From Betaproteobacteria bacterium (GTDB lineage Bacteria; Pseudomonadota; Gammaproteobacteria; Burkholderiales; Burkholderiaceae_C), in contig RFYV01000010.1 in assembly GCA_009921265.1 (NCBI GenBank), positions 1 through 64,000 on the forward strand: a stretch of 64,000 bases of DNA, in the 5' to 3' direction. The position numbers and the translations under genes were made by a program. Shown piece by piece: positions 7,444 to 27,634 of this stretch. Every line of letters starts with the position of its first letter. The first letter of the stretch is position 1. The notes below the pieces were generated by a model. The model saw only the letters and a program-made list of their open reading frames with translations. It searched no databases and was not told where the DNA came from.

Positions 7444-7519
7444 CGATGTCTCCTAGTTTTGTATTAATGATTAATGTACTTTTTCTTGCGACGATTGATG
7501 TAAAAACCTGCTGGTTAAT

Positions 7520-7555: not shown

Positions 7556-7582
7556 GTAATGAGGGAAAATACCAGGAATTGC

Positions 7583-8386: not shown

Positions 8387-8388
8387 AG

Positions 8389-8553
8389 ATTGGATATAAA
8401 TCCTATTCAACCGATAAAGAGATGGTGGCTGCGTTGAATGAAGATGGGTTGACGCCTAACCCCAGTTCGCGTGAGGACTTAGCAAAGTTTATTTCAAAGA
8501 AATCTGCAACTTATGCTAAATTAATTAAAGATAAAAACATTACTGAAGACTAA
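8389..8553 (+). pseudogene. 3' remnant of a Bug/TctC binding-protein gene
   Basis: Directly after the iclR-type stop, one frame reads IGYKSYSTDKEMVAALNEDG, then LTPNPSSREDLAKFISKKSA and TYAKLIKDKNITED before TAA at 8551. This matches the C-terminal end of Bug proteins: G-x-x-P-x-x-S-S-x-E-x-L-x-x-F-I, then K-L-I-K-D-x-N-I. The roughly 270 residues that should come before it are missing. It is a deletion remnant of a lost receptor gene, abutting the regulator. It is unlikely to be expressed as a functional protein. Confidence 0.75.
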
Positions 8554-8597
8554 GACTCTTCTCCCTTTTTGAACAACAGTTGATGGAGACAAAGCCA

Positions 8598-9926: not shown

Positions 9927-9931
9927 ATCAA

Positions 9932-10768: not shown

Positions 10769-10837
10769 TTTTTCCTCTGGCATTAAAATTTTTTTAAAAA
10801 TGAATATTGCCATAACATTGCAATCGTTTCAACAGTT

Positions 10838-11653: not shown

Positions 11654-12859
11654 TTACCTAAACAAAAGCAACCAGTATCTTCGTGTCAGGACCAGCATGA
11701 TCAGGCCTTGCACAGCCAAGGCAACGATGGCTATTCGAGGCGAGAAGGTTTCTGCCAAAAAACCGATATACAAAAAACCAATCGGTCCCGTACCAATACA
11801 CGTTGAAAGTACACCTAACAATCGTGCGCGCATCTCAATGGGTGAATCTCTGTAAACCAAGGTTGCTTGCATCACAGAAAACCCCAACGCTCCGAGCCCA
11901 TTGCAGAATAAAAACAATGCGGCCAGTGGCGACCAAAGCGTATTTGCAAATCCAATCATCGTCACAAAATACATGGCAACTGCAATCACATAGATACGCC
12001 CATACCAATGCGGTCGCGCAAAGTTTGCAAATAAAAATGCACCCGTGAGTCCACCGATACCCTCAAAGCTGGCAAGAAATCCAACGTCTTTGGGTATCAG
12101 TTGCAAATAATCAGTTGCGATGACAGGAATCATGCTGGTGTAGGGCCAGCCAAAAATATTAAAAGTTACGGTGATTAAAAAAATACCGATAAGCCTTGGG
12201 TCATTCTTAATCAATACGAAACCTTCGATGACAGGTGTTAGCAATGATCCGCGATGTTGATGCGCGGGTACATCGCGTTTGTTCATGTGCATGACGATCC
12301 ATCCACTCGTGCAATATAGCAATACACCAAACCAAAAAACACCTGCAATATCAAAGTAAAACAATAAGGTGCCCGCCAATATAGGGCCCAATATGCGACT
12401 GACATTATTGGCTCCCGCATCAAATGAAATCGCAGAGCCCACTCGATCAATGCCGACGACATCACCCAACATCATTCGACGCACTGGATTGTCTGCTGTC
12501 CAACAAATGCCATTCACAAACGCGGCAATGCCTAAATGCCAAACTTGCAATAAGCCTGTGCTCGACAAGATCGCTAATGAACCCGTGGTGATCATCGACA
12601 CCATGAGGATGCCAATGAGGGTGCTTCGACCTTCAAAGCGATCAGCCGCCGCCCCAATTAAAGCGCCAAATAATCCCATGGGCAACATGCGTAGCATGCT
12701 GAGAACGGCAACAATAAAAGCAGACTCTGTTGCTTTGTATGCAAATAAACCAATTGCCAGTGTTTCTAACCATCGAACGCACGACGACACAAAACCAATC
12801 AAAATCAGACGCCGAAAATCGGCTATATGAATGAGTGAGTTGCTACTCAATGGCAGCAT
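11654..12859 (-). CDS. MFS transporter (EntS/MFS_3-like)
   Basis: 401 residues with about 12 hydrophobic segments. Features of the EntS/MFS_3 subgroup are visible: MLRMLPMGLFGALIGAAADR in helices 2-3, with the D-R of the cytoplasmic loop motif, and NPVRRMMLGDVVG after helix 4. These proteins usually export small molecules. It lies 46 nt downstream of the DapA-family gene on the same strand, so the two may form one unit. The substrate is unknown. Confidence 0.87.
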   Translation of the reverse strand: MLPLSSNSLIHIADFRRLILIGFVSSCVRWLETLAIGLFAYKATESAFIVAVLSMLRMLPMGLFGALIGAAADRFEGRSTLIGILMVSMITTGSLAILSSTGLLQVWHLGIAAFVNGICWTADNPVRRMMLGDVVGIDRVGSAISFDAGANNVSRILGPILAGTLLFYFDIAGVFWFGVLLYCTSGWIVMHMNKRDVPAHQHRGSLLTPVIEGFVLIKNDPRLIGIFLITVTFNIFGWPYTSMIPVIATDYLQLIPKDVGFLASFEGIGGLTGAFLFANFARPHWYGRIYVIAVAMYFVTMIGFANTLWSPLAALFLFCNGLGALGFSVMQATLVYRDSPIEMRARLLGVLSTCIGTGPIGFLYIGFLAETFSPRIAIVALAVQGLIMLVLTRRYWLLLFR

Positions 12860-12893: not shown

Positions 12894-13847
12894 CTAGGCT
12901 GCCTTAGACAATGCGTTGGGAGTCATACCAATTTGATGCAAGCATTGCGCAATGGTGATTTTTTGTTTTGCATCAGGGCTGACAAGTGGTGCACGAATAC
13001 GTGCAGACTTCAAGTGACCCGATTGAAAAAGTGCTTCTTTGGTCGCCGCAAAATAACTGGTATGTGATTTATGCAATTGATTTTCAAAGACAGCATCCAT
13101 GACAGGCATTGCAAATTCAATATGTAGTTTGTGCGCTTGATCTAACTCGCCATGGGTTGCATGACGAACAAGATCTGACCATCTTTGGGTATCAATCACG
13201 CTAATACCAATTAAAGCGCCAGGACAGCGATACATCAACATGCCCAACAACGAAGGTGCATCAGAAGCAGCGAGTACATCGACTTTATCGCCCACTGCAT
13301 TCATGATTTCCACAAAAGCGGTGGTTGAGGTGCAGGCAGCTTTAATCGCCACCACTTGAGGAATTTCAACAATCGCTCGCAAAGCATCCAACGAGTAGGC
13401 CACACCTGAGGCTTCAGCGTATTGAAAAACAATCATCGGCAGATCGACTTCATCGTTCAATCGTTGAAAGATGGCACGCACTGATTCTGTGTGATGGGTC
13501 AGCATTCTATAGGGTCTCACATCAAAAGGCGGCAATACCAAGAGCACGTCGGCGCCTGCTTTTTTGGCGCGAAGACCTTGCTCGATCAGATCGTCAAAAT
13601 TGTGTCCCTCAATACCAGCCACTAACTTGATATTTTTTGGAATGACTTTTTTGGCATGTTCAACTATTTTCGCGCGTTCATCTGTACTGAGTGCCAAAAC
13701 TTCACCAGCATGCCCATTGACCGCGATGCCATAAAGCCCAGTTGCACTGCTGACGTGGATCAGATGTTTTTCTAATTCTTTGTAGTCCACATTGCCGTTG
13801 GCCTCAAAGGGTGTTAGTGTTGCAGGTATGAGTCCGCGAATAGGCAT
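12894..13847 (-). CDS. DapA/N-acetylneuraminate lyase family aldolase
   Basis: 317 residues. The start at 13847 (MPIRGLIPATLTPF) has GGAG at normal spacing; the ATG at 13859 would place that site inside the gene. It is a class I aldolase of the dihydrodipicolinate synthase superfamily, a TIM barrel with a Schiff-base lysine. The expected Lys is at 169 (VVAIKAACTS) and the Tyr at 143 (VFQYAEASG). The G-x-x-G-E motif is replaced by NGHAGEVLALS. True DapA is unlikely because the sequence is diverged and no lysine genes are near. A pyruvate-dependent lyase for a sugar acid or aromatic breakdown product is more likely. Confidence 0.87.
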   Translation of the reverse strand: MPIRGLIPATLTPFEANGNVDYKELEKHLIHVSSATGLYGIAVNGHAGEVLALSTDERAKIVEHAKKVIPKNIKLVAGIEGHNFDDLIEQGLRAKKAGADVLLVLPPFDVRPYRMLTHHTESVRAIFQRLNDEVDLPMIVFQYAEASGVAYSLDALRAIVEIPQVVAIKAACTSTTAFVEIMNAVGDKVDVLAASDAPSLLGMLMYRCPGALIGISVIDTQRWSDLVRHATHGELDQAHKLHIEFAMPVMDAVFENQLHKSHTSYFAATKEALFQSGHLKSARIRAPLVSPDAKQKITIAQCLHQIGMTPNALSKAA

Positions 13848-14001
13848 AAAAGTCTCCATGATTTTTGTCGATGCTTGGTTTATAGGGCAAATTCAATGCG
13901 AACTGTACATTTTTTTTCAATTTCTGTCTCCAGTGCGTCAGCCAAAACAAGCGTTGTCGACTCAAAATTTGCTATAACAACTTGAAAAAAAGGAGGCCTG
14001 T

Positions 14002-14979
14002 ATGAACTTATCGCGCAGAAGAATGCTTGTTAATCTGGCGGGCTCATTGGCAGCAATGGGTAGCTCATCGAGTTGGTCTCAGGCCTATCCATCGCGTCCT
14101 ATTCGGATTGTGGTGCCCTATTCGCCAGGCGGTCCTGTGGATGTGACGGCCAGAATTTTGGCCGAACCCTTAGGACGCTACCTGCGTCAATCCATCGTCG
14201 TTGATAACCGTGCGGGTGGCAACGCAGCCATTGGTACGGAATATGTGGCGCGCTCTGCTCCCGATGGCTATACGCTCTTGATGGCTGCACCTGCACATAC
14301 ATCCAACCCCAGTTTGATGAAATCCTTGAGTTTTGATACAGCAAAAGATTTCACAGGAATTTCATGCATCATGGATCAACCCTTGTTGATTGCCGTACAT
14401 TCCGATTTAGAAGTTAATACTTTGGATGAATTGCTAGCTAAGCTCAGAGCCAATCCAGGAAAATTTAATTATGGAACGTCTGGTGCGGGTGGGCCGCAGC
14501 ATCTGATGGGTGAGATGTTTAAAACAGCAACGGGCACACAAATCACGCATATTCCTTACAAAGGCGCGGCGCCTGCATCGGTTGCATTGTTAGCGGGCGA
14601 AACCCAAGTTGCATTCAGTACGCCAACTAATATTCTTCCGCATATCAAAACAGGCAAACTCAAAGTCTTGGCAGTTAGTAACGCTAAAAGATCTCCATTC
14701 ACGCCAGATATTCCTACATTGGCAGAGTTGGGTGTAACTGGATTTAATTATTCATCATGGACTGGGTTGCTTGCACCGACAGGAACGCCAAAAGATGTGA
14801 TTCAAAAACTGTATTCAGGCGTACTTGCAAGCTTGGCTGAAAAAGAAGTCAAAGACAAAATGTTTCAAAATGGAATTCAGCCCCTAGGAACAAGTCCCGA
14901 AGAGTTTGCAAAATTTTTAGCGCTTGATTTTTCAAGATCAGCAAAAATTATCAGTGATTCTGGTGTCAAAGCACAATGA
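14002..14979 (+). CDS. Bug/TctC-family periplasmic binding protein, Tat-type signal
   Basis: 325 residues, full length. The start is fixed by AAAGGAGG a few bases upstream. The signal peptide begins MNLSRRRMLVNLAG, a twin-arginine-like motif, and ends near SWSQA. Family motifs are VVPYSPGGPVDVTARIL, VDNRAGGNAAIG, APDGYTLLM, HIPYKGAAPASVALL and APTGTPKDV. It is the first gene of the long operon reaching to about 26491 and its stop overlaps the next start by 4 nt. Co-translation with an FAD oxidoreductase suggests that the bound carboxylate is that enzyme's substrate or a precursor. Confidence 0.95.
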   Translation: MNLSRRRMLVNLAGSLAAMGSSSSWSQAYPSRPIRIVVPYSPGGPVDVTARILAEPLGRYLRQSIVVDNRAGGNAAIGTEYVARSAPDGYTLLMAAPAHTSNPSLMKSLSFDTAKDFTGISCIMDQPLLIAVHSDLEVNTLDELLAKLRANPGKFNYGTSGAGGPQHLMGEMFKTATGTQITHIPYKGAAPASVALLAGETQVAFSTPTNILPHIKTGKLKVLAVSNAKRSPFTPDIPTLAELGVTGFNYSSWTGLLAPTGTPKDVIQKLYSGVLASLAEKEVKDKMFQNGIQPLGTSPEEFAKFLALDFSRSAKIISDSGVKAQ

Positions 14980-16469
14980 CAGAATTTGCAGGTGCTATTG
15001 ATTCTAAAAGTTATGATGTCATCGTGGTGGGCGCAGGAGGTTCTGGCTTGGCTGCAGCAGTCAGTGCAGCCGAGAGTGGCGCATCAGTTTTGGTTTTAGA
15101 AAGTCAACAACGCCCAGGTGGGACATCACGCATGGCCGTTGGATCGATTAGCGCTGCAGGAACGCATTTACAAAAACAAGCCGGCATTGTTGACAATAGC
15201 AACGATTTTATTACGGACATGGAGTTATTCACGGCTGATTTATTAGTACATGACAATGCAAATTTACGACAAGTACTTGCCGAGCAAGCCTCACTTACGG
15301 TTGATTGGTTGAGCCAGATGGGCGTTGTATTTGTGGGGCCTTATGCCGAACCCCCGCACAGAGTCGAGCGCATGCACAACGCTGTTCCGGGTGCTGCATC
15401 CATTGTTAAACGATTACTGATTGCATGTCAAAGCTTGGGCGTTGAAATACAAACGCAATCGAGCGTAAGTCAATTGCATCAATATGCAGATGGACGCGTT
15501 CATGCATTGAGTTTTAAAAGTTTGGATGGCATGCATCGCGTCAGCGCACGAAAAGCCGTTATTTTGGCCAGTGGTGATTTCAGCGCAAGCAAAACCATGT
15601 GCTCTGCTCATTTGCCTTTAGAAGCATCGCGCGCTATTCCAATTAATCCAACCAATACAGGTGAAATGTTTGATGTTGCATGCAAAGTCGGTGCGCAAAC
15701 ACTCAATATGCAACATGTTTTTGGTCCGCAAATGCGGTTTCCTGCAGGCACTTCAACCCACATCGCCAACAAAATGCCGAGTTGGCCTTGGCTCAATCAA
15801 TTCATGGCAATGTTTTTTGAATACGCGCCACCTGCGCTTAAAAAATTATTGGCCAAGCCCATGTTGATGGCGCATATGTCACCTTCTGAGCAATTGTTTG
15901 CACAAGGCGCCGTATTGGTCGATGAGAATGGGCAATTACTTGATAACAAGAGTCCAGCAAAATCAATTGCAATGACCGAGTCACGACGTGGCTTTATTGT
16001 GATGCCCAATCATGTTGCAAAAAAATTCAATGCGTTACCGTATTTTATTTCTACAGCCCCAAGCATTGCATACGCTTTTATCGATGATTACATCAGTGGC
16101 AGACCTGATATCACTTTTAAAGCCAAAGATTTAGAAACATTATCTACTTCAATGGGGTTATCCAACGCAAAAGGTTTGCGTCAAAGTTTGTCGGGTATCT
16201 CTGCTGATTATTGGGTAGGTCTTGGTCCCGTGCAAGCCATGCTCACTACCACCGAAGGTTCTATTGCAATTAATTCGCAATGCCAAGTGATGGGCGCAAC
16301 AGGACAGCCCATCGAAAGTTTGTATGCGGTCGGTTGCATCGGGCAGGGCGGATTACTACTTCGGGGGCATGGTCTTCATTTGGCTTGGGCTTTTACATCG
16401 GGACGAATCGCAGGAAAATATGCAGCATCACAAAAATTATTAAAGGAGACATCACATGCGACTGTTTAA
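14976..16469 (+). CDS. FAD-dependent oxidoreductase, fumarate reductase/ketosteroid dehydrogenase-like flavoprotein
   Basis: 497 residues. The FAD-binding Rossmann motif GAGGSG is at 19-24 after the beta strand YDVIVVG, with E-S at the end of the second strand (LVLESQ). The middle region has the FAD_binding_2 layout, and the C-terminus ends in GCIGQGGLLLRGHGLHLAWAFTSGRIAG, the usual FAD closing segment. The family oxidises or reduces an activated C-C bond (fumarate reductase, 3-ketosteroid delta-1-dehydrogenase, tricarballylate dehydrogenase). No signal peptide is present, so it is cytoplasmic. It overlaps its neighbours on both sides by a few bases. A tricarballylate dehydrogenase-like role is possible but not proven. 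Confidence 0.87.
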   Translation: MTEFAGAIDSKSYDVIVVGAGGSGLAAAVSAAESGASVLVLESQQRPGGTSRMAVGSISAAGTHLQKQAGIVDNSNDFITDMELFTADLLVHDNANLRQVLAEQASLTVDWLSQMGVVFVGPYAEPPHRVERMHNAVPGAASIVKRLLIACQSLGVEIQTQSSVSQLHQYADGRVHALSFKSLDGMHRVSARKAVILASGDFSASKTMCSAHLPLEASRAIPINPTNTGEMFDVACKVGAQTLNMQHVFGPQMRFPAGTSTHIANKMPSWPWLNQFMAMFFEYAPPALKKLLAKPMLMAHMSPSEQLFAQGAVLVDENGQLLDNKSPAKSIAMTESRRGFIVMPNHVAKKFNALPYFISTAPSIAYAFIDDYISGRPDITFKAKDLETLSTSMGLSNAKGLRQSLSGISADYWVGLGPVQAMLTTTEGSIAINSQCQVMGATGQPIESLYAVGCIGQGGLLLRGHGLHLAWAFTSGRIAGKYAASQKLLKETSHATV

Positions 16470-17436
16470 TTTATTTCGCCTCTGTTTTATTTTGTTGCTT
16501 TGTTCTAGCAGTCAGGTCTTTGCACAAGCTGCACAAACTGCACAAATTCCGATTCGATTTGTTGTGACGTTTCCACCAGGCGGTGCTGCCGATCAAGTGG
16601 CGCGCATCATTGCACAAGAAACCTCTGTAATTCTCAATACGCCTATCCTTGTTGAAAACAAAGCAGGTGCCAGTGGCATGATTGGCGCTGATTTTGTTGC
16701 GCGCGCCAAACCCGATGGCAAAACTTTTTTGATCGGTGGAAATGGTCCTACCGTTCTGAACCAAGCCTTGTTTAGCAAGATGCCCTACGACCCAGAAAAA
16801 TCTTTTACTCCTGTTGTAGGTCTTGCAAAGTCCCCTTTGTTGATGTTTGTTCGCAAAGATCTGGGCGTTACCAATCTCAAAGATTTTTTGGAATTGGCGC
16901 GCAAAAAACAACCACCCTTGAGCATGGCTTCAGCAGGAATTGGCAACATCACTCACATCACGGGTGAATATGCTGCAGCGTTGATGGGATTCAAAATCAA
17001 TCACATTCCATTCAGTGGCAGTGCGCCTGCCGTTACTGCTGTGATGGGCAACAATGTGGATTTGATGTTTGATCCACTTCCCTCGTCAATGCAGCAAGCA
17101 CGCAACGGGTTAATGATTCCATTGGCGTTAATGGATGACCAACGTTTTCCTCCTCTTGCACAAGTGCCCACGCTCAAAGAGTCTAACTTTGCAAATATGG
17201 AAATCAGCGCATGGTTTATTCTTTTAGCGCCTGCACAAACGCCTAGAAATATCGTTTTAGAAATGAATAAGGCCGTCAACCTTGCACTGACGCGTCCCGA
17301 ACTCATTGCTCGTATTCAAGGCATTGGCGAGCAACCTTTAGGTAATATGTCACCCGAACAAGCGGGTGAATTCATCTCAGCAGAGCGTCAGCTCTGGGTC
17401 CCACTCATCCGTCAACTAGGAATCAAAGCAGAATGA
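16456..17436 (+). CDS. Bug/TctC-family periplasmic binding protein
   Basis: 326 residues with a Sec signal (MRLFNLFRLCFILLLCSSSQ, ending VFAQA). A short in-frame repeat, AAQTAQ, follows the cleavage site. Motifs: VVTFPPGGAADQVARII, VENKAGASGMIG, HIPFSGSAPAVTAV and LLAPAQTPRNI. The ribosome-binding site AAAGGAG lies inside the end of the oxidoreductase gene, whose reading frame it overlaps by 14 nt. Its stop overlaps the start of the FAA-hydrolase gene by 4 nt. It is the second receptor of this operon. Confidence 0.95.
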   Translation: MRLFNLFRLCFILLLCSSSQVFAQAAQTAQIPIRFVVTFPPGGAADQVARIIAQETSVILNTPILVENKAGASGMIGADFVARAKPDGKTFLIGGNGPTVLNQALFSKMPYDPEKSFTPVVGLAKSPLLMFVRKDLGVTNLKDFLELARKKQPPLSMASAGIGNITHITGEYAAALMGFKINHIPFSGSAPAVTAVMGNNVDLMFDPLPSSMQQARNGLMIPLALMDDQRFPPLAQVPTLKESNFANMEISAWFILLAPAQTPRNIVLEMNKAVNLALTRPELIARIQGIGEQPLGNMSPEQAGEFISAERQLWVPLIRQLGIKAE

Positions 17437-18371
17437 AATTAGGCATCATCAAACGCGCACATGGATTGCGCAACGCTGTTATTGTCAAATGGGACTCCGC
17501 CACGCCAATGGCGCTGGACATTTCTCAAGCGGCCGCATCCATGGGCGATCAATGGCTTGCAGGATTGAACATGCAAGGCATCATTGAAAGTGGAGACAAA
17601 GCGTTGGATCACATCCGTCGATTGATTAAATGGTCTGTGAATCATCAAAACTCGCAATGGGTTGAGACTGCAAGTACAGCAGCATGGGATATTCCATTAC
17701 CTGCGCGTTCAATTATTTGTGCAGGACGCAATTTTGGTCGACACAAACAAGAGAGTTTGGATTATTGGAAAACACAAGGCGCAACAGGAATTCATTTTGA
17801 ATTTCCATCGGCGTTCATTAAACTGGCTCATACTCTTGTACCTCATCAAGCTCGCGTTGCACGCCCCGCAGACGTTCACGCGTTTGATTACGAAGTAGAA
17901 GCCGTTGCCATATTGGGTAAAAACTGTTTTCGCGTCAGCGAAGAGAATGCGCTCGAGCACGTATTTGGCTATACCGTTTTTAATGACTTGTCTGCTCGTG
18001 AATGGCAACTTAAAGAAATGCGCAATCAAATGATCATGATGGGGAAAAATTTTCCAGGCTTTGGTCCAATTGGTCCTTGGATAGTCACGGCTGATGAAAT
18101 TTCTGATCCCTCCAAAATGCACGTTTCACTTCGCGTCAATGGTCGAACCTTGCAAGACGAGAGCTGTGGCGATATGGTTTTTAGTTTTCCACAACTAATT
18201 TCGTTTTGGTCCAAATCGGGATTGGGCGCGGGAGACATGATTGCGTCAGGCACACCCGAGGGCGTTGCCTTACACAGAAAACCCAACGCTGACGATTTTT
18301 ATCTCAAGCCTGGTGATGTGATGGAGGCCGAGGTGGACGCAATCGGCATACTCACGACGCATATTGTTTGA
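17433..18371 (+). CDS. Fumarylacetoacetate hydrolase family protein
   Basis: 312 residues: an N-terminal lead and the C-terminal FAH domain from about residue 90 (IICAGRNFGRH). Metal-binding acids lie in FEFPSAFIK and FDYEVEAVAILGK, followed by FGYTVFNDLSAREWQ, MGKNFPGFGPIGPW and SGTPEGVAL, all family markers. FAH enzymes hydrolyse or decarboxylate/hydrate beta-dicarbonyl and 2-keto acids with Mg2+. It overlaps the Bug gene before it by 4 nt. A step acting on a diketo acid made by the neighbouring enzymes is plausible. The specific substrate is unknown. Confidence 0.9.
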   Translation: MKLGIIKRAHGLRNAVIVKWDSATPMALDISQAAASMGDQWLAGLNMQGIIESGDKALDHIRRLIKWSVNHQNSQWVETASTAAWDIPLPARSIICAGRNFGRHKQESLDYWKTQGATGIHFEFPSAFIKLAHTLVPHQARVARPADVHAFDYEVEAVAILGKNCFRVSEENALEHVFGYTVFNDLSAREWQLKEMRNQMIMMGKNFPGFGPIGPWIVTADEISDPSKMHVSLRVNGRTLQDESCGDMVFSFPQLISFWSKSGLGAGDMIASGTPEGVALHRKPNADDFYLKPGDVMEAEVDAIGILTTHIV

Positions 18372-18391
18372 ATTCAAAAGTTGGAAGATTC

Positions 18392-20470
18392 ATGAATCAA
18401 GCAAAAAACGCATTTTTACTCGCGGTTGACATTGGCGGCACTTTCACTGACTTAACTGTTTTTGATATCCAAACAGGGGATTTAAAAGCAGTGAAGTGTC
18501 TCACTTCATACGACAATTTTGTTCGTGCTATTGATGAATGTATGGCCGCACTTGGGTTATCGATTTCAAACGCTTTGTCTTTTAAGCACGGCACCACTTT
18601 GGTGATTAACTCGCTGTTGCAAAGAAAAGGTTCGCATACGGTGTTGCTCACCTCGCGCGGCTTTAAAGATGTATTAGAAATTGCGAGAGGGAACAGGGCG
18701 TTGCCCTATCAAATGCATTACCGCAAAGCCGACCCATTGATTTCTCGTGAGCGTCGCTATGAGCTAACTGAAAGAAGCAATGCGATGGGTGAATCGGTTG
18801 CCGCGCCTGATCTTTTGGAGTTAGAAAATTTAGCGCATCAATGGAAAGAGAAGGGCGTTGAGTCTGTTGCGATTTCTTTTATCAACGCATACGCAAACCC
18901 TGCGCACGAAGAAACGGTTGCAAACGCATTGCAAAAATTATTGCCTCATGCATTCATTACTTACGGAAGTCAGTTATCGCGCGAATGGTATGAGTATGAA
19001 AGAACGGCAACCGCATCTGCCAATGCGTTTGTCGGCCCCGAGGTGGGTCGCTATGTAGATCGATTGAGCAAAGGCCTTGATGAAAGAAAATTTGTCGGAG
19101 AGCGCTACTTTATGGGCTCGGGTTCGGGTGTAATCAGTTTTGAAGTGGCTTCTGCACAACCTGTTCGATTGGTCGAGTCGGGTCCTGTTGGTGGTGTGGT
19201 GGGCGCTGCCGCTTACGCACAAGCTTTGGGTATCTCGCACATGGTTGCTTTTGATATTGGTGGCACAACTGCCAAATGTGCATTGGTGAAGTCTGGACAA
19301 TTTGATATCAAGACTTCGTATTGGGTGGGTGGCTATGAACATGGATTTCCTATTCGCAGCAGCATAATCGATATTATTGAAGTGGGTGCGGGCGGTGGAT
19401 CGATTGCTCGACTTGATGTCGAAGATCGTTTGCGTGTGGGCCCTGAAAGTGCAGGATCTTTTCCAGGCCCCGTTGCTTTTGGTAGAGGCGGTACTGAACC
19501 AACAGTTACGGATGCAAATATTGTTTTAGGTCGACTCGACCCGCAAGCGCGCATGGGCGAAGATATCGTACTGAGTGTAGAAAAAGCACGTGAAGCCATT
19601 TGGCAAAAATTAGGCGAGCCTCTTGGATACACGAGTGAGCATGACGTCCCTCAAATTGCACAAGGCTTACTCACATTGGTTTCGGTGAAGATGTCTGCTG
19701 CGATTCGAAAAATAACTATCGAACGTGGTGAGGACCCCAGAGAATTTGTTTTGTTTGCATACGGCGGTGGTGGCCCATTGCATAGTGTCGAACTCGCTCG
19801 AGAGCTCTCGATTCCTAAAGTGATTGTTCCGATTCGTGCGGGCGTTTTTTCTGCATTAGGTATGCTGTTTGCAGAAGTGGAGTCCGATGAAAGTCGAACA
19901 TTTTTGGCGCCTCTCAATGCAGCCAATCTCATTCATGCAGTCAAATTATGCGAAGATATGCTCAGCGTGATCAAGGCTCGAATGCCTGCGTCTCAATCGC
20001 AGAACGACATGATTGTGTTGCGGTATGCTGAACTTCGTTATAAGGGTCAACACCACACGCTCCGTATTTTGTGGGATTCAAACACAACGAGTGATTCACT
20101 CCAAGAACATTTTGAAAATACGTATCGACAACGTTATGGACATGTGACTGCAGGTGCACTCATCGAGTTTGTTTCCATTGCAACCATCGTAAGACATGCG
20201 GTACAAAAACCCAACTTAGAGGCCATGGCGATTCAATCGGTGGCAGGAGCAAAGTCGAGTCCTACGACAGTTCAACGAGAGGTTTTTCTCGCGCGCAGTC
20301 GCAGTTGGAAAAAAATGCCTGTCTTTCAGCGTGCCGAGTTGCCCATCGGTTTTGCGCATCCAGGTCCTGCGTTGATTGAAGAGTATGGCGCTACCTGCCT
20401 CATCGATGAAGGCGATCGATTCCATATTGGTCGTCTCGCAGAACTTCACATTGATGTTTCATTAACTTAA
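18392..20470 (+). CDS. hyuA: Hydantoinase/oxoprolinase family subunit A (HyuA-like)
   Basis: 692 residues from the ATG at 18392, preceded by GGAAG; the TTG at 18368 is less likely. The N-terminal hydantoinase A domain starts LAVDIGGTFTDLTVF (DIGGTFTD at 13-20), with a second ATPase-fold phosphate loop later (FDIGGTTAKCALV). GAGGGSIARLD and FAYGGGGPLHSVELAREL are strongly conserved in N-methylhydantoinase, 5-oxoprolinase, acetone carboxylase and acetophenone carboxylase subunits. These enzymes use ATP to activate a carbonyl or amide. No third small subunit of acetone carboxylase type is present, which favours a two-subunit hydantoinase/lactamase-type enzyme. Confidence 0.93.
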   Translation: MNQAKNAFLLAVDIGGTFTDLTVFDIQTGDLKAVKCLTSYDNFVRAIDECMAALGLSISNALSFKHGTTLVINSLLQRKGSHTVLLTSRGFKDVLEIARGNRALPYQMHYRKADPLISRERRYELTERSNAMGESVAAPDLLELENLAHQWKEKGVESVAISFINAYANPAHEETVANALQKLLPHAFITYGSQLSREWYEYERTATASANAFVGPEVGRYVDRLSKGLDERKFVGERYFMGSGSGVISFEVASAQPVRLVESGPVGGVVGAAAYAQALGISHMVAFDIGGTTAKCALVKSGQFDIKTSYWVGGYEHGFPIRSSIIDIIEVGAGGGSIARLDVEDRLRVGPESAGSFPGPVAFGRGGTEPTVTDANIVLGRLDPQARMGEDIVLSVEKAREAIWQKLGEPLGYTSEHDVPQIAQGLLTLVSVKMSAAIRKITIERGEDPREFVLFAYGGGGPLHSVELARELSIPKVIVPIRAGVFSALGMLFAEVESDESRTFLAPLNAANLIHAVKLCEDMLSVIKARMPASQSQNDMIVLRYAELRYKGQHHTLRILWDSNTTSDSLQEHFENTYRQRYGHVTAGALIEFVSIATIVRHAVQKPNLEAMAIQSVAGAKSSPTTVQREVFLARSRSWKKMPVFQRAELPIGFAHPGPALIEEYGATCLIDEGDRFHIGRLAELHIDVSLT

Positions 20471-20496
20471 TTTATTTTTTGCAATCACAAAATTTT

Positions 20497-22203
20497 ATGA
20501 GCAATTGCCACTCCATCGATCCCATCACCTTAGAGGTGATTCGAAACAAATTGTTAGCCATTCCTGAACAGATCGAGGCCAACATCACGCGTACTGCATT
20601 TAGTCCACTCATTTATGAATACAAAGATTTTGCAGTGGGAATTGTTGACGTTGAATGTCGATTGATATCGCAGGGAAAAGGCGGCATCCCTCTTTTTGTT
20701 GCGAATATTTTGGGTGCTGCCGTCGAGGATGGCATCTATTTTTATGGCAAAGATGGGTTCGAGCACGGTGACGTGATCATTTGTAATTATTCAGGTGTGT
20801 TGGGTCAGCATCTCAATAACGTTGTTATGTATACGCCCATATTTGCCAGCGAACAATCGCGATCTCCTGAAGCGTTTTTAGCAATAGCCGCACATTGGAC
20901 GGATGTGGGTGGTCGTGAAGTGGGCTCATCTGCGACGAATGACACTGTGAGTATTTTTCAAGAAGGCATTCAGTTTAGAACTGTTAAGTTGCAAAAAGCA
21001 GGGCAGCCTGTTCAAGATATTTATCGGATGATCGAATTCAATACTCGATTTCCTGTCGTTGTTTTGGGTGATGTGGCATCACAAATGGGCGGTTGTTTGC
21101 TTGGACGCAATCTGTATCAAGGATTACTTAAGCAATATGGCGTTGAAACTGTATCGCACGCGATTGAGCAACTGTGGATGAAATCAGAACAAGCAGCACG
21201 TCAAATCATTGAAGGCATTCCTGATGGCACTTATACGGCCTATGCTGAACTTGATGACGACGGCATTCAAGTGGGGCAAGTCGTTCCGATACCAGTTACT
21301 GTACGGATTAAGGGTAAGCAACTCGAAGTTGATTTTTCAGATATCGCGCCCGTGCTCAAAGGCCCGTTTAATTCTGGCGCATTAGGCGGCGGAATCACTG
21401 CCGCGAGAATTGCAATGAGTTATCTTTTACCCAATGGTGATGCACCCAACGAAGGAACCTTTCGATGTTTGTCGGTTGTATTGCCTGAAGGAAAATTTTT
21501 GAGCGCTCCAGCAACAGCACCGATGGCGCGTTACAGTACGCCCTTAGCCACAGTCATTGACGTTGTGTTGCGTGCAGTGGGTCAAGCAAGACCTGATTTG
21601 GTTGCAGGCGGACATCACGGTGCTTTTGGTGTTCATGTGTTCAGTGGCAGAAAAGCAAATGGAGAGCTGTTTAAAAATCTTGAAACAGGTCAAGGTGGTT
21701 TTGGCGCGAGTCAAAGAGGGGATGGCAGTGGTCCATTTAAAACCTATGCGCATGGCGATACGTTCAACGTGCCTGTTGAATTGCAAGAAGCGCTCTATCC
21801 GGTTTTTTTCGATTCCATTTCTCTCAGACAAGATTCGGGTGGACCTGGTCAATTCAGAGGCGGACTCGGTGTTAGCAAGCGCGTCAAAGCGCTTCAAGAC
21901 TGTCACCTCAACGTGAGTATGGATCGAACAAAATGCCCGCCATGGGGGGTTAACTCAGGGCACGATGGTGCAAGTGGGCAAGTAATTTTGAATCCAGGAA
22001 CTGATCGTGAAGAGCACTTAAAGAAAGCCGACCGTTCACTCAAAAAGGGCGATTGGGTACAAGTCGATTCTGGGGGAGGCGGTGGCTACGGTGAACCATC
22101 CAAACGTTCAATCGACAGCATCACGCATGATCTTTTAAAAGGCTATATCAGTGAAGAGGCCGCAAAAAAGATTTATGGTTATTCATCACCTTCCAAACTT
22201 TGA
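20497..22203 (+). CDS. hyuB: Hydantoinase/oxoprolinase family subunit B (HyuB-like)
   Basis: 568 residues if started at the ATG at 20497 (MSNCHSIDPITLEVIRNKL). No good ribosome-binding site is visible, so the TTG at 20479 is not excluded. Family marks: IDPITLEVIRNKL at the N-terminus, YEYKDFAVGIVD, the GGHHGAFGVHVFSG stretch and DSGGPGQFRGGLG followed by DSGGGGGYG near the C-terminus. It forms the catalytic complex with HyuA, whose gene ends 26 nt before this start. The reaction is probably ATP-dependent hydrolysis or carboxylation of a cyclic amide or ketone. Confidence 0.93.
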   Translation: MSNCHSIDPITLEVIRNKLLAIPEQIEANITRTAFSPLIYEYKDFAVGIVDVECRLISQGKGGIPLFVANILGAAVEDGIYFYGKDGFEHGDVIICNYSGVLGQHLNNVVMYTPIFASEQSRSPEAFLAIAAHWTDVGGREVGSSATNDTVSIFQEGIQFRTVKLQKAGQPVQDIYRMIEFNTRFPVVVLGDVASQMGGCLLGRNLYQGLLKQYGVETVSHAIEQLWMKSEQAARQIIEGIPDGTYTAYAELDDDGIQVGQVVPIPVTVRIKGKQLEVDFSDIAPVLKGPFNSGALGGGITAARIAMSYLLPNGDAPNEGTFRCLSVVLPEGKFLSAPATAPMARYSTPLATVIDVVLRAVGQARPDLVAGGHHGAFGVHVFSGRKANGELFKNLETGQGGFGASQRGDGSGPFKTYAHGDTFNVPVELQEALYPVFFDSISLRQDSGGPGQFRGGLGVSKRVKALQDCHLNVSMDRTKCPPWGVNSGHDGASGQVILNPGTDREEHLKKADRSLKKGDWVQVDSGGGGGYGEPSKRSIDSITHDLLKGYISEEAAKKIYGYSSPSKL

Positions 22204-22228
22204 AGTTTTTATCTAAAGGAGAATGCAT

Positions 22229-23239
22229 ATGAAAAAATCAAACACACTCAATCGCAGACAAATTCTTCAATCTGCAATTGCTGCACCAATGGCTTTGCAC
22301 GCACAGTTTTCTGGTGCACAAAGTCAAGATTTTCCTACCCGCCCCGTTAAAGTCACCGTCCCCTTTGCAGCGGGTGGTTCGGTTGATCAAATGGCGCGTT
22401 ACATCGGTGGCAAGTTGCTTCCTAAATGGGGGCAACCGTTGGTGGTGGAGAGTCGCGCAGGAGCCAATTCTTTGGTCGGTACAACCTATGTTGCAAAAGC
22501 GCCTGCGGATGGATACAACATTTTGATGGCCGCTGATCCTGCGTTTTCCATCATTCCGTTGTTAAACAAAAATATGCCCTACAACGCAGATAAAGATTTT
22601 GCACCTTTATCCATCATGTGTCAGATCTCGTTTTTACTTGTGGCACATGGCAGTTTTCCTGCTAATAATTTTCAAGAGTTTGTTGCTTATGCAAAAGCCA
22701 ATCCAGGAAAAGTTTCTTATTCATCGCCAGGTATTGCAAGTCAACATCATGTGATGTTTGAAGTGCTGGCCAATCGTTTAGGTATTGAGTTGTTGCATGT
22801 GCCATACCAAGGAATTGCACCTTCAATGTCTGCGCTGCTTGCTGGCGAGGTTAATTTATTGTTAGGTGCGTTGGCGCTACCACTGTCGCATATTCGTTCG
22901 GGCAGGATCAAAGCGCTTGCGTTTGCCGGTACAGAAAGACACCCCTTGTTGCCCCAAGTGCCCACTGTTTTGCAAGCGGGTGGTATTGCATTTGAAGCAC
23001 GCTCTTGGTTTGGCGCATTTGCACCCGCAGCAACACCCAAAGACATTGTGCAAAAAATGTCCAACGATATTTGGGATGTGACATCGAGCAAAGATTTTAG
23101 TGAGAACTTTTTGATTCCAAATGGGTACGATCCCATCAACACCATCAAGCCATCGCAGTTTGTAAAATTTTTACAGGATGATCGCGCTCGCTGGGAAAAA
23201 GCGATTGCACTCATTCCGCCTGATAAGCTCAAAACTTAA
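22229..23239 (+). CDS. Bug/TctC-family periplasmic binding protein, Tat-like signal
   Basis: 336 residues. The ribosome-binding site AAAGGAG ends 7 nt before the ATG at 22229; the ATG at 22223 would be too close. The signal has NRRQILQSAIAAPMAL, a twin-arginine-like motif, ending near SGAQS. Motifs: VTVPFAAGGSVDQMARYI, VESRAGANSLVG, HVPYQGIAPSMSALL and FAPAATPKDI. It is the third receptor of the operon and lies close behind hyuB. It shares a GS-V-D variant and a C-terminal ...DDRARWEKAI ending with the receptor at 32263, which suggests a common subfamily. Confidence 0.94.
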   Translation: MKKSNTLNRRQILQSAIAAPMALHAQFSGAQSQDFPTRPVKVTVPFAAGGSVDQMARYIGGKLLPKWGQPLVVESRAGANSLVGTTYVAKAPADGYNILMAADPAFSIIPLLNKNMPYNADKDFAPLSIMCQISFLLVAHGSFPANNFQEFVAYAKANPGKVSYSSPGIASQHHVMFEVLANRLGIELLHVPYQGIAPSMSALLAGEVNLLLGALALPLSHIRSGRIKALAFAGTERHPLLPQVPTVLQAGGIAFEARSWFGAFAPAATPKDIVQKMSNDIWDVTSSKDFSENFLIPNGYDPINTIKPSQFVKFLQDDRARWEKAIALIPPDKLKT

Positions 23240-23306
23240 TAAATGTGGTCCGTGCAGTGATAAGTAAATAGAGGACAATGTTTGAAATATCAAAGGAGAC
23301 TACCGA

Positions 23307-24302
23307 ATGTTGACTTTTTCATACGCTGGGCTGAGATATCTATTCATCACTCTTTTTGCATTTATATACGTCGCGTCTCCCCATATTTCATGGGCTCAGT
23401 CTGCATATCCCAATAAACCCATCAAACTGATTGCTCCTTTTCCACCAGGCGGTACCAGCGATGTGCTGGCAAGATTGATTGCAATGAAGCTTTCAGAAGG
23501 GTTAGGGCAGCCTATCACTGTGGATAACCGCGCAGGAGCCAGCGGTAATATTGGTCATGAGACTGCGGCTAAATCTGCTCCCGATGGATATACCTTATTG
23601 CTTTCAAATAGCAGCACAGTTGTGAATAACCCTTTCATGTTCAAAAAATTATCTTTTGATCCGATTGATGATTTTTCAGCGATTGCGTTGGTCGCTTCTG
23701 CTGGACAGGTTTTGGTTGTTCATCCATCTGTACCCGTTACCACATTGGCTGAAGTAACGGCTTATGCCAAAGCCAATCCAGGCATACTCAATTTCGGTTC
23801 GGGTGGTAAAGGAATTCAATCGCACATCAGCGGTGAAATGTATAAAAGTGCGGTTGGCGTCAACATTGTTCACATCCCTTACAAAGGAACAATACAAGCA
23901 GTAACTGATGTATTGGGAGGTCAAATACAAATGGTATTCTCAGATATGGTGCCTGCGATGCCGCATATTAAAAGCGGTAAGTTGCGAGCAATTGCAGTAA
24001 CCAGCGTTCAGCGATCCGTTGCATTGCCCGATGTACCCACGATGATTGAGTCGGGTGTGCTAGGTTTTGAATCGGGTGTGTGGTGGTCTATCGTTGCACC
24101 CAAAGGAACGCCTATAGAAATTATTAATCGCATCAACTTGGAGCTCGGCAAGATCATGCAATTGAATGATGTTCGTGAAACTTTGGGCAACTTGGGTGTT
24201 GCACCTCTTCATAGCACCCCCAATAAAGTTGCAGAAACAATTCGATCAGAGTCACCGTTGATGGGGAAAATTTTAAAAGCAGCGGGTGTTGAAGCTGAAT
24301 GA
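23307..24302 (+). CDS. Bug/TctC-family periplasmic binding protein
   Basis: 331 residues, with a Sec signal ending SWAQS and AAAGGAG upstream of the ATG. Motifs: LIAPFPPGGTSDVLARLI, VDNRAGASGNIG, APDGYTLLL, HIPYKGTIQAVTDVL and VAPKGTPIEI. The 67-nt gap before it has no clear terminator, so it probably belongs to the same operon. It lies 23 nt before the CoA-transferase gene. It is the fourth receptor of the operon. Confidence 0.94.
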   Translation: MLTFSYAGLRYLFITLFAFIYVASPHISWAQSAYPNKPIKLIAPFPPGGTSDVLARLIAMKLSEGLGQPITVDNRAGASGNIGHETAAKSAPDGYTLLLSNSSTVVNNPFMFKKLSFDPIDDFSAIALVASAGQVLVVHPSVPVTTLAEVTAYAKANPGILNFGSGGKGIQSHISGEMYKSAVGVNIVHIPYKGTIQAVTDVLGGQIQMVFSDMVPAMPHIKSGKLRAIAVTSVQRSVALPDVPTMIESGVLGFESGVWWSIVAPKGTPIEIINRINLELGKIMQLNDVRETLGNLGVAPLHSTPNKVAETIRSESPLMGKILKAAGVEAE

Positions 24303-24325
24303 AATTATTGTAAAAGACAACTCAG

Positions 24326-25504
24326 ATGCAACTTGAAGGAATTCGCGTAGTCGATTTGACGCGCATACTTGCAGGACCTTTTTGTTCGATGTTTTTAGCG
24401 GACATGGGTGCTGAAGTCATCAAGATCGAAGACCCATTCGATGGCGATCCTGTCAGAAAACAAGGCGCATCTGTCAATGGTTATTCACTTTACTTCGCAA
24501 GTTTCAATCGCAATAAACGCTCACTCACACTGGCCCTTCGTACCAAAGAGGGCATGGATATTTTGCGATCATTGATTCGACAAGCCGATGTAATCGTTAA
24601 CAACTATCGTCCTGGCGTGATGGAGAAAATGGGTTTAGGTCGAGCAGAGTTGATGGCTCTCAAGCCTGACATCATCAGCTGTCATGTCACGGGCTTTGGT
24701 TTAACGGGACCATACACTGACAGGCCTTCATTTGACTTCATCGCACAAGCAATGAGCGGGTTTATGAGTGTGACAGGTTTTGAAGAAGGCCCACCGATGC
24801 GCGCGGGCCCACCGATTTCTGATTTGGTGGCAGGCCAGCAAGCAGCGATGGGTATATTGGCTGCATTGGTTCGTCGCAACCGAACAGGCGAGGGCGAAGA
24901 AATCGCCACTGCACTCACCGATGGCATGACCAGCATGTTGGCTTTTTTGGCTACCAATTACTTTGCCAATGAAAAGATACCCAAGAGAACGGGTAATGAT
25001 CACAGCTTAGCGTCACCCTACGGATTATTTGAAGCGTCAGATGGTCAAATTGCAATTGCTCCATCCAACGATAGGTTTTATTTCAAACTGCTTGATGCAC
25101 TCGATTTAGGCCATCTTCGCGATCATCCCGACTTTCAAACCAATGACGATCGCTACCTTCATCGTTTGGCGATCAACGCCGAGATCAATTTGCAGACCAA
25201 AAAACAATCGGTTGCTCATTGGATAGATGCGATCAACCGAGCGGGAATTCCATGCGGTAAGGTTTTAGACATGGGGCAGGTGTTTGAGGACCCACAAACG
25301 CAGCACCAACAAATGCGCATGACGATTGATCATCCACAGCACGGCAAGCTCGATGTCTTGGGTTTTCCAATTAAATTCACAGATGAGCCCTGTCGCGTCC
25401 ATCGCCCCCCGCCCGTGCTAGGTGCAGATACTGATGCTATATTGACAGAACTGGGTTTTAATACACAACAAATTCATGAACTGCGCGCGCGTGGTGTGAT
25501 TTAG
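24326..25504 (+). CDS. Class III (CaiB/BaiF family) CoA-transferase
   Basis: 392 residues. The N-terminus has the family start GIRVVDLTRILAGPFCSMFLADMGAEVIKIE, followed by NRNKRSLTL. The catalytic aspartate expected after the R-x-G-P motif is present at 166 (AGPPISDLVAG). The C-terminal end PPPVLGADTDAIL is also typical. The enzyme moves CoA from a donor acyl-CoA, usually succinyl-CoA, to a free carboxylate in the cytoplasm. With the lyase that follows 30 nt later it makes a logical CoA-activation then cleavage pair. The substrate is unknown; succinyl-CoA:citramalate/itaconate-type transfer is one possibility. Confidence 0.93.
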   Translation: MQLEGIRVVDLTRILAGPFCSMFLADMGAEVIKIEDPFDGDPVRKQGASVNGYSLYFASFNRNKRSLTLALRTKEGMDILRSLIRQADVIVNNYRPGVMEKMGLGRAELMALKPDIISCHVTGFGLTGPYTDRPSFDFIAQAMSGFMSVTGFEEGPPMRAGPPISDLVAGQQAAMGILAALVRRNRTGEGEEIATALTDGMTSMLAFLATNYFANEKIPKRTGNDHSLASPYGLFEASDGQIAIAPSNDRFYFKLLDALDLGHLRDHPDFQTNDDRYLHRLAINAEINLQTKKQSVAHWIDAINRAGIPCGKVLDMGQVFEDPQTQHQQMRMTIDHPQHGKLDVLGFPIKFTDEPCRVHRPPPVLGADTDAILTELGFNTQQIHELRARGVI

Positions 25505-25534
25505 TTTTCATTTTTTTTCAAATAGGACTTTAAT

Positions 25535-26491
25535 ATGTCGTACCAACCCAAATCTAACAATGATCGTTTTGTACTCGTCACCGAAGTTGGCACCCGTGAC
25601 GGTTTTCAAGCCGAAAAAGAATTCATCCCCACACAGTCAAAAGCCGATTTAATCAACGCACTGATTGATGCGGGTGTGACGAGTGTTGAAGCTACGTCCT
25701 TTGTTTCACCGCGTGCTGTGCCTCAATTGGCCGATGCCGCTCAACTCATGGACATGATTGTTCGCAAACCTGGTGTACGAATCACTGCATTGGTGCCCAA
25801 CGCTCGAGGTGCCGAGCGGGCAGCTGCAGCCAAGGTCGACATGATGGCTTCGTTTATTTCTGCATCCGAAACTCATTGCCAAGCCAATTTAAATAAATCC
25901 ATCGATGCAGCCATTGCAGACTTCAATGAATTTGCACCCATTGCCAAAAAATTCGGCATCTCATTGCGTGGTGCAGTCGCTACTGCATTTGGTTGTCCGT
26001 TTGAAGGCGACGTCAAGATTGAAAACATTCTCAAGATCATCGATGCATACATGGCTGATGGTGTACGCAACATCAGTTTAGGAGATACAACGGGTATGGC
26101 CACACCGCCTGTGGTGTCAAGAGTGGTAGAGGCAATCAGGTCGCGTCATCCACAAGCGGTAATTGCGCTTCACTTTCACAACACCCGTGGCATTGGTTTG
26201 GCCAACGTGATGAATGGACTTGAACTCGGTATTCGTGAATACGAATCTTCATTTGGTGGCCTGGGTGGTTGTCCATTTGCACCAGGTGCAACAGGCAATA
26301 TCTGTACAGAAGATTTGGTTTATTTACTCCACGAATGTGGCTATGAAACAGGTATCGACTTAGAAAAACTGGCTTCAATCGCCATGCGCGTACAAGACTT
26401 GATGAAGCGCGAACTGCCAGGTCAATTTATGCGTTCAGGCCCGCGGCTCAAACTTTCATCGTTGGAATCGGTTCAACGCGCGGTGGGATGA
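25535..26491 (+). CDS. Hydroxymethylglutaryl-CoA lyase-like enzyme
   Basis: 318 residues of the DRE-TIM metallolyase family. The metal/substrate motif is TEVGTRDGFQ (R21, D22), the metal histidines are in ALHFHNTRG (213 and 215), and the active-site loop cysteine is 246 (GGLGGCPFAPGATGN). This is the full HMG-CoA lyase signature, so retro-Claisen cleavage of a 3-hydroxy-3-methyl or similar acyl-CoA is expected. In this operon the substrate is probably the CoA ester made by the preceding transferase. Leucine degradation is not indicated, since no isovaleryl-CoA or methylcrotonyl-CoA genes occur here. Confidence 0.93.
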   Translation: MSYQPKSNNDRFVLVTEVGTRDGFQAEKEFIPTQSKADLINALIDAGVTSVEATSFVSPRAVPQLADAAQLMDMIVRKPGVRITALVPNARGAERAAAAKVDMMASFISASETHCQANLNKSIDAAIADFNEFAPIAKKFGISLRGAVATAFGCPFEGDVKIENILKIIDAYMADGVRNISLGDTTGMATPPVVSRVVEAIRSRHPQAVIALHFHNTRGIGLANVMNGLELGIREYESSFGGLGGCPFAPGATGNICTEDLVYLLHECGYETGIDLEKLASIAMRVQDLMKRELPGQFMRSGPRLKLSSLESVQRAVG

Positions 26492-26513: not shown

Positions 26514-27494
26514 TCAATCAATTTTGATATTGGATTCTTTGGCGACTTTGCCCCAGCGCGCATAGTCGGTACGAACAAATTGAGCAAATTCTTCGGATGT
26601 GCCGCCCACTGCAGTGGCACCCCCATTTGCAATTTTTTCTCGTACATCTGGCATCGCTAAAACTTTGTTGATCTCGGCATTGAGTCGAGCGACAACTGCT
26701 GGTGGTGTACCCACTGGTGCAAATAAACCTAGCCATATTCCTACATCAATACCTTTGATTCCTGCCTCATCCAAGGTTGGAGTGTCGGGGAGCATGGGAG
26801 AGCGTTTGATTGTTGTAATTGCAACGGGTTTGAGTTTGCCACCGTTAACCAAAGGCAGTACAGAGGGCACAGACAAAATGGCCATGTCCACGGATCCCCC
26901 AATGACATCGTTTAATGCAGGTGCAGCGCCTTTGTAGGGCACGTGAAGCAGTTTTGTTTGTGTTGCTTGTTTGAATTGTTCTGTGTAGAGATGCCCCACG
27001 GTTCCATTGCCCGCAGAGGCCCAGGTAAAACCTTTTTCAGTTTTGCCTTTGGCCACCATATCAGCGGGAGTTTGAATTCGATGCTGTTGGCCAACAGGTT
27101 GTGCATTGCTCACGATAGCCAGTGGTGCCACAGTGGCTTGAATAATAGGCGTAAAACTTTTGATCGTGTCATAGCCCACGTTGGGATAAAGCCAAGGACC
27201 GAGCATCATGTTATCGCTTTGCCCCATCACAATGGTGTAACCATCGGGTGCAGCCTTGGCCGCTGCAGCAATGGCTAAATTACCACCTGCACCCGGCATG
27301 TTTTCGAGTATCACAGCCCATTTCGTTGTTTCTGCTAGTTTGCTGCCTACAACGCGCGACACAAAATCAGTGCCGCCCCCAGGTGGGAAGGGTATGAGTA
27401 AACGAATCGGTTTATTAGGAAAATCTGTTTGTGCCCATGTTAATGTTCCAAACAAAACTGCAGTGATGCATAAAGATTGTCGAATGATTTTCAT
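26514..27494 (-). CDS. Bug/TctC-family periplasmic binding protein
   Basis: 326 residues from the ATG at 27494, where the Sec signal begins (MKIIRQSLCITAVLFG, ending TWAQT); the longer frame to 27581 only adds an unlikely lead. Motifs: LLIPFPPGGGTDFVSRVV, ENMPGAGGNLAIA, APDGYTIVMG, HVPYKGAAPALNDVI and APVGTPPAV. It converges on the end of the long catabolic operon. No partner gene is adjacent on its strand. Confidence 0.94.
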   Translation of the reverse strand: MKIIRQSLCITAVLFGTLTWAQTDFPNKPIRLLIPFPPGGGTDFVSRVVGSKLAETTKWAVILENMPGAGGNLAIAAAAKAAPDGYTIVMGQSDNMMLGPWLYPNVGYDTIKSFTPIIQATVAPLAIVSNAQPVGQQHRIQTPADMVAKGKTEKGFTWASAGNGTVGHLYTEQFKQATQTKLLHVPYKGAAPALNDVIGGSVDMAILSVPSVLPLVNGGKLKPVAITTIKRSPMLPDTPTLDEAGIKGIDVGIWLGLFAPVGTPPAVVARLNAEINKVLAMPDVREKIANGGATAVGGTSEEFAQFVRTDYARWGKVAKESNIKID

Positions 27495-27634
27495 AAGTTC
27501 CCAATCAAGAAAAGATGAAGCGTTGATAGTCATTTGAATTGTCGGTCTTTTCAAAAATAATTCAATTAGATTTATAGACATTTTGTCATCCGAAAGGATT
27601 AAATTATTCTGTATTTAGTTCAGAGGAGGCTCTG

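Follow-up and report, generated by a model that had tools for sequence, protein, structure and literature searches.

Ten tightly spaced genes at 14002-26491 of contig RFYV01000010.1 of a lake-dwelling Betaproteobacteria bacterium (the analyzed stretch of 64,000 nucleotides is called the window here) are best read, with a probability of roughly 0.55, as two catabolic modules placed head to tail, the workings proposed below for each included. Module 1 (14002-23239) would be an operon around an ATP-dependent HyuA/HyuB (HyuAB) enzyme of two subunits, a member of the FAH family and a Bug receptor, to which a flavin oxidoreductase and two further Bug receptors would have been added in this lineage. 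Module 2 (23307-26491, plus a Bug gene at 26514-27581) pairs a class III CoA-transferase (CoAT) with a protein of the hydroxymethylglutaryl-CoA (HMG-CoA) lyase family (HMGL). Each module is probably read as a single transcript. The HyuB subunit of module 1 carries asparagine at a position where the caprolactamase subunit CapB has a metal-binding aspartate, and its relatives are accordingly called Asn, His or Asp type below.

The ten open reading frames (ORFs) were confirmed at the places given in Table 1, all on the plus strand, and their Pfam families are, in order, TctC, FAD_binding_2, TctC, FAA_hydrolase, Hydantoinase_A, Hydantoinase_B, TctC, TctC, CoA_transf_3 and HMGL-like. The genes overlap by 4, 14, 4 and 4 nt and are then separated by 8, 19, 67, 23 and 30 nt. 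Thus, the gene identities, order and compactness described in the first-pass annotation were borne out. Its remark that no named pathway has this set also stood, as searches of openly licensed PMC papers, the literature covered here, gave none; nor was any description found there of an operon joining HyuAB with FAH, Bug or CoA-transferase genes. Within that literature, the enzyme family is known, but this variant of it sits among genes in a combination for which no description was found. The same annotation had proposed that all ten genes serve one route, with CoA transfer and retro-Claisen cleavage as its last steps, and had suggested looking for the same gene order in other genomes. That order was not conserved: synteny ends after BugC in the nearest relative, and CoAT and HMGL occur as separate units. 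The chemistry that the annotation suggested, the link to lactam or hydantoin opening included, is putative.

The nearest named relative found was a Limnohabitans metagenome-assembled genome (MAG) from Lake Baikal (L036, SHXN01000048.1). Its alignment with the window (11.6 kb, 86% nucleotide identity) reaches from the MFS gene to some 20 nt past BugC, and the MAG keeps the MFS and DHDPS genes together with the series BugA–FAD–BugB–FAH–HyuA–HyuB–BugC. The break falls in the widest gap of the ten-gene run, the 67 nt between BugC and BugD. Beyond BugC, L036 contains a convergent 2-hydroxyacid dehydrogenase gene on the other strand, up to the contig end, and BugD was not found there. Ramlibacter ginsenosidimutans (L037) has HyuA (60%), HyuB (71%), BugC (62%) and FAH (50%), in that order; BugC comes after hyuB in both relatives. 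No match to the FAD oxidoreductase or HMGL was found on the Ramlibacter stretch, nor to the former in that genome at E 1e-60; hyuB is followed at about 7 kb by a CoAT of 36% identity and preceded at about 4 kb by a DHDPS gene of 28%. Since HyuAB, FAH and Bug stay together in L036 and in Ramlibacter, gene-order comparison identifies them as the conserved core unit. The block of BugA, FAD and BugB was seen beside this core in the window and L036 only, and the FAD oxidoreductase, by the same comparison, appears to be a lineage-specific addition.

Differences between the window and L036 fall predominantly at third codon positions in all nine genes; in HyuB, 156 codons differ silently and 43 with replacement. 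Aligned to the window, the L036 copies of FAD and BugB have premature stops, and 1-nt indels are present in BugB, FAH and HyuA; MFS, DHDPS, BugA, HyuB and BugC have neither. The four adjacent lesioned genes (FAD, BugB, FAH and HyuA; positions 4508-9989 of SHXN01000048.1) are thus flanked by intact ones. Both a population that is (recently) losing the pathway and assembly errors are possible explanations.

For its part, module 2 was found apart from hyuAB. HMGL orthologues (72-75% identity, E 1e-95) were present in 3 of 83 other genomes of the same genus (G159, G161 and G217). In G161 and G217 (L110 and L111) they belong to a unit of Bug (89%), CoAT (73-74%) and HMGL, on stretches of 8.0 and 9.9 kb. 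The presence of this 89% orthologue ahead of CoAT-HMGL indicates that the convergent Bug gene of the window probably belongs to module 2. In another genus (L078, 18.9 kb) CoAT (58%) and HMGL (56%) form a divergent pair. No HyuAB match was found on the four module-2 stretches of other genomes (8.0 to 18.9 kb). Conversely, CoAT and HMGL occurred together within 6 kb of an Asn- or His-type hyuAB at only 1 of 31 loci, the window itself, and the 46 neighborhoods compared, window included, held no second locus with both genes. The first-pass annotation had stated that conservation of the HyuAB pair alone, without synteny for the rest, would speak against its proposal. The comparison comes close to that case, except that FAH and Bug genes often stay with HyuAB.

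The best solved relative of CoAT was succinate-hydroxymethylglutarate CoA-transferase (9br6, SUGCT), and its score lay below the cut-off of every one of the seven NCBIfam models it matched; the name succinate-glutarate CoA-transferase was therefore rejected. HMGL scored above its subfamily cut-off, its nearest solved relatives being HMG-CoA lyases, and it showed 72 to 76% identity to its counterparts in L109, L110 and L111. With SUGCT nearest to CoAT and HMG-CoA lyases nearest to HMGL, the substrate may plausibly be a compound like hydroxymethylglutarate or citramalate: a succinyl-CoA-dependent transferase would activate such a 3-hydroxy acid and the lyase would split it. In these relationships the pair resembles what we take to be the known hydroxymethylglutarate- or itaconate-type transferase and lyase pairs, from which it differs in the scores of CoAT under all seven cut-offs. 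The window contains three class III CoA-transferases in its 64 kb (24326-25504, 52405-53625 and 62084-63289), part of a wide CoA-transferase set in the genome.

The metal site of the HyuB subunit was compared with that of CapB. According to the parts of PMC8453981 consulted, the metal ligands of CapB are Asp41, His99, Asp102 and His124, the last three fully conserved in the enzymes compared there, and the D102A mutant is inactive, caprolactam hydrolysis being abolished. Asn114 of the window HyuB aligns without gaps to Asp102, and the Asp-His-Asp-His tetrad expected of a B subunit is thus interrupted at its second Asp. The remaining ligands (D50, H111 and H139) were kept in all 46 sequences of a HyuB tree, in which the Asp102 site was occupied by Asn in 13, His in 17 and Asp in 16; as the sample was picked by likeness to the window, these frequencies are not valid for HyuB at large. 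The Asn and the His sequences each formed one clade (100/100 in both cases), joined at 97/93. The tree tool warned of long branches meeting among the Asp rows and at the Asn/His join, so the sister relation is less sure than either clade alone. Loci repeating sequences already present, such as L002, L026, L081, L083 and L085, were left out of the tree, as was Neorhizobium L086, whose hyuB is split in two pieces; its residue at the same site, read separately, is also Asn.

An AlphaFold2 model of HyuB (mean pLDDT 77) matched N-methylhydantoinase 9h03 and caprolactamase 6yra_B with TM scores of about 0.8 (0.81 and 0.80, respectively, query-normalized). Its metal loop (residues 106-112) had pLDDT values below 50, too low for a three-dimensional assessment of the ligand change. 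Since fold and sequence match in spite of N114, we regard the protein as a predicted variant, not a canonical, member of the HyuA/HyuB superfamily. HyuA carries the motifs DIGGTFTD at residue 21, DIGGTT at 296 and GSFPGP at 363, and hence the phosphate and adenosine motifs by which passages of PMC8453981 define the A subunit.

Among characterized enzymes, CapAB of Pseudomonas jessenii (PDB 6YRA) shares with the window proteins the two-subunit build, the HyuA ATP motifs, the HyuB fold and three of the four metal ligands, and differs from them in Asp102. Of the solved structures, N-methylhydantoinase (7HK5 and 9H03) came closest to both subunits, at 329 and 223 bits. It is a fused single chain that keeps the Asp but has Gln in the place of CapB His124, and a natural change at the HyuB metal site is thus not unique. 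Acetone and acetophenone carboxylases (5SVB, 5M45 and 5L9W) have homologous subunits and the same fold but gave lower scores, and no further carboxylase subunit is present among the ten genes. Caprolactamase was rejected as a name (NCBIfam scores of 401.2 and 230.6 bits against equivalog cut-offs of 1,000), as was acetophenone carboxylase, which fell below its curated cut-off.

The FAH enzyme of module 1 retains His104 and Glu107, presumably a catalytic dyad, and Glu154, Glu156 and Asp185, presumably a metal triad; all five were present in 18 of 18 aligned rows, as expected of the FAH/FAHD family. Its nearest solved relative, 8sky (140 bits), is what we take to be Bacillus subtilis YisK. It is like the FAHD/YisK-type oxaloacetate tautomerases and decarboxylases in this score and in the dyad and triad, and differs from them in its gene context with HyuAB and Bug. 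The portions of PMC10825186 consulted describe tautomerase activity for FAHD enzymes, among them B. subtilis YisK, which acts on oxaloacetate, and state that FAHD-type genes are often found beside those for enzymes that handle enol-keto metabolites.

The association of FAH with hyuB was counted within 6 kb at 14 Asn-type loci (window and L086 included), 17 His-type and 15 Asp-type loci, the neighboring genes being read by tblastn. Two contigs of about 3.3 kb present in the tree (L008 and L016) were left out of the count, and L052, with a hyuB fragment only, and L131, on a 5.4-kb contig, were included. FAH was found near hyuB at 6 of 14 Asn, 12 of 17 His and 0 of 15 Asp loci, that is, 18/31 versus 0/15 (Fisher p = 8e-5). 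A profile hidden Markov model (HMM) gave 7, 12 and 0 (19/31 versus 0/15), the extra locus, L049, being weak, and among loci with at least 9 kb of total flank the tblastn counts were 5/10, 9/12 and 0/13. Bug genes lay within 6 kb at 25 of the 31 Asn/His loci versus 3 of the 15 Asp loci. Within the Asn clade, FAH stands before hyuA (window and L036), after Bug (L037 and L048), directly after hyuB (L071) or after ABC-transporter genes (L073); that it is kept although its place varies points to a functional link with HyuAB.

Several results weigh against the two-module reading. The synteny break was seen in a single relative, whose contig ends 993 nt after BugC, and the 67-nt gap lacks a recognizable terminator, so that a ten-gene transcript is possible in this strain. 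The genomes with HMGL orthologues (G159, G161 and G217) carry hyuAB on other contigs, of the His type in G161 and G217. In G159, judged from matching coordinates to be the same MAG as L036, HMGL (75%) lies beside a CoAT of only 33%, so module 2 is itself loose. Distant CoA-transferases lie 7 to 8 kb from hyuB in L032, L037 and L048, and one of 31% lies 2.1 kb from hyuB at L034, an Asp-type HyuAB locus of the window's own genome; with 13 CoAT matches in that genome at E 1e-60, some such neighbors are to be expected. As for the core, FAH was absent near 13 (tblastn) or 12 (HMM) of the 31 Asn/His loci, some on short contigs, and the Fisher p value overstates independence because most His-type loci are near-copies within one family. 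Flavoproteins of 24 to 32% identity within 6 kb of hyuB at L073 and at 3 of the 15 Asp-type loci indicate that the FAD gene is not specific. If all ten genes formed one pathway here, oxidation would be followed by HyuAB ring opening, an FAH step, CoA transfer and HMG-CoA-lyase-type cleavage. The shared strand and gaps of at most 67 nt would suit such a route, as would the consensus scan, which gave no terminator-like site between BugC and BugD (its sites being no more numerous than in shuffled sequence), and the CoA-transferase at L034. Given the break after BugC in L036, the occurrence of module 2 apart from hyuAB and the proximity of CoAT and HMGL to this HyuAB subfamily at the window alone, we consider it unlikely. 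Where a genome is as rich in Bug and CoA-transferase genes as this one, tight spacing can give two modules the look of one pathway.

In module 1 as we propose it, a Bug receptor would bind a small carboxylated substrate and the flavoprotein would oxidize it. FAH would interconvert enol and keto forms, or else cleave or decarboxylate a beta-dicarbonyl compound; HyuA would phosphorylate the enol or lactim form with ATP and hand the product to HyuB, which, with Asn for one Asp ligand at its metal site, would hydrolyze or carboxylate it. We infer every reaction, substrate and direction given here for both modules. HyuAB would use ATP to activate a cyclic amide or a ketone that can enolize, and FAH would act on the enol/keto form of that compound. 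Passages of PMC8453981 describe acetone carboxylase as phosphorylating its ketone in the enol form and caprolactamase as taking a route through the lactim. Taken together with the work on FAH tautomerases, this suggests that FAH may set the enol form that HyuAB activates with ATP. For HyuAB we lean toward hydrolysis, since N-methylhydantoinase and caprolactamase were closest in score to both subunits.

Carboxylation is the possible but improbable alternative: an acetone- or acetophenone-type HyuAB would carboxylate an enolized ketone and FAH would then act on the beta-keto acid. The HyuB model does match acetone and acetophenone carboxylase subunits (TM 0.72 to 0.80, query-normalized), HyuA scored 234 bits with the ApcC model, and FAHD enzymes act on enol/keto acids according to the consulted parts of PMC10825186. 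Both subunits, however, scored higher with the models of caprolactamase (401 and 231 bits) and with chains of N-methylhydantoinase and caprolactamase, and none of the ten genes had a Pfam match to a third carboxylase subunit. Loss of the metal, with HyuB serving in binding or regulation and HyuA as a mere ATPase, appears very unlikely. It would fit the effect of D102A in CapB reported in those passages of PMC8453981 and the low-confidence model loop, in which metal-site geometry is not readable. Against it stand the retention of the other three ligands throughout the tree, the mostly silent HyuB differences between the window and L036, the ability of His to bind metal, and the Gln of N-methylhydantoinase at His124, which indicates that the site tolerates change.

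Enzymes of the HyuAB kind either open cyclic amides, which are very stable, or carboxylate ketones, and many relatives lack an assigned substrate. A further, rather improbable reading is that the Asn and His clades constitute an undescribed HyuAB subfamily, in which the altered metal site and an FAH tautomerase would carry out a new ATP-dependent reaction: FAH would give the enol, HyuA would phosphorylate it and HyuB would open or carboxylate it, unlike caprolactamase. If so, that reaction would run in freshwater Limnohabitans, in other Burkholderiales and in some rhizobia. A well-defined subfamily, linked to FAH by gene order and naturally altered at a residue that caprolactamase cannot do without, offers a testable handle on the role of the metal site and on lake-water substrates.

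The four receptors, on which the first-pass annotation had remarked, proved to be genome background, and were rejected as a special feature. The source genome (3.56 Mb in 267 contigs) has at least 150 TctC matches (150 of the 184 first-look candidates scored) and 5 TctA matches, 3 of them full-length. The window holds 12 TctC stretches among 57 called genes; ten genes would be expected to include 2.1, with a probability of 0.12 for four or more. One TctC ORF (10838-11443) covers only profile positions 80-272 and is thus probably a truncated receptor gene.

Table 1. Features of the two modules and their surroundings (window coordinates).
Feature	Position	Strand	Evidence or remark
MFS transporter adjoining the DHDPS gene, possible partner	11654..12859	-	Pfam MFS_1; 90% in L036, linkage kept
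DHDPS-family protein, possible partner	12894..13859	-	Pfam DHDPS 126 bits; 91% in L036
BugA, TctC-type periplasmic receptor, first gene of module 1	14002..14979	+	Pfam TctC 230.9 bits; 92% (amino acids) in L036
FAD-binding oxidoreductase, flavocytochrome c/fumarate-reductase-like, module 1	14976..16469	+	FAD_binding_2 123 bits; 86% in L036
BugB, TctC-type receptor, module 1	16456..17436	+	Pfam TctC 164 bits; L036 copy with stop and 1-nt deletion
FAH-family enzyme, module 1 core	17433..18371	+	Pfam FAA_hydrolase 215.9 bits; nearest solved relative 8sky, 140 bits
HyuA, ATP-binding subunit, module 1 core	18368..20470	+	Pfam Hydantoinase_A; 60% in Ramlibacter
HyuB, variant-type metal-site subunit, module 1 core	20479..22203	+	Hydantoinase_B 446 bits; 71% in Ramlibacter
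HyuB residue 114 (Asn; CapB metal ligand Asp102)	20818..20820	+	Position computed from ORF start
BugC, TctC-type receptor, last gene of module 1	22223..23239	+	93% in L036, 62% in Ramlibacter
67-nt gap BugC/BugD	23240..23306	+	L036 alignment stops about 20 nt into gap
BugD, TctC-type receptor, module 2 side of break	23307..24302	+	Pfam TctC 244 bits
CoAT, class III CoA-transferase, module 2	24326..25504	+	CoA_transf_3 432 bits
HMGL, HMG-CoA-lyase-family protein, module 2	25535..26491	+	NF004283 353 bits, cut-off 246
Bug receptor convergent to module 2	26514..27581	-	89% orthologue precedes CoAT-HMGL in L110, L111

The DHDPS gene is divergent from BugA, with 142 nt between them, and this linkage is kept in L036. 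A promoter and terminator scan gave signal at or below the level of shuffled sequence. For the FAD oxidoreductase, the name tricarballylate dehydrogenase TcuA was rejected (125.6 bits against a cut-off of 369, and 76.4 against 372.55).

Related HyuAB genes were also observed on plasmids (L086, L088, L089 and L090), in varied combinations with genes for M24-type peptidases, Asp/Glu racemases, amidohydrolases and proline dehydrogenase, a context that suggests breakdown of cyclic dipeptides or proline-derived lactams. On a Comamonadaceae plasmid (L087, 8231-9376) a gene for a GTP-binding protein, perhaps a metallochaperone, separates a His-type hyuB from a TctC gene. A small ORF adjoining the His-type hyuB of L028 had no Pfam match at 1e-8. 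Within the window, a protein without a Pfam match at 1e-10 (9932-10813) adjoins an amino-acid permease (8580-9926), and relatives of the two stand side by side in L052 (G161), with 69% and 76% identity, respectively.

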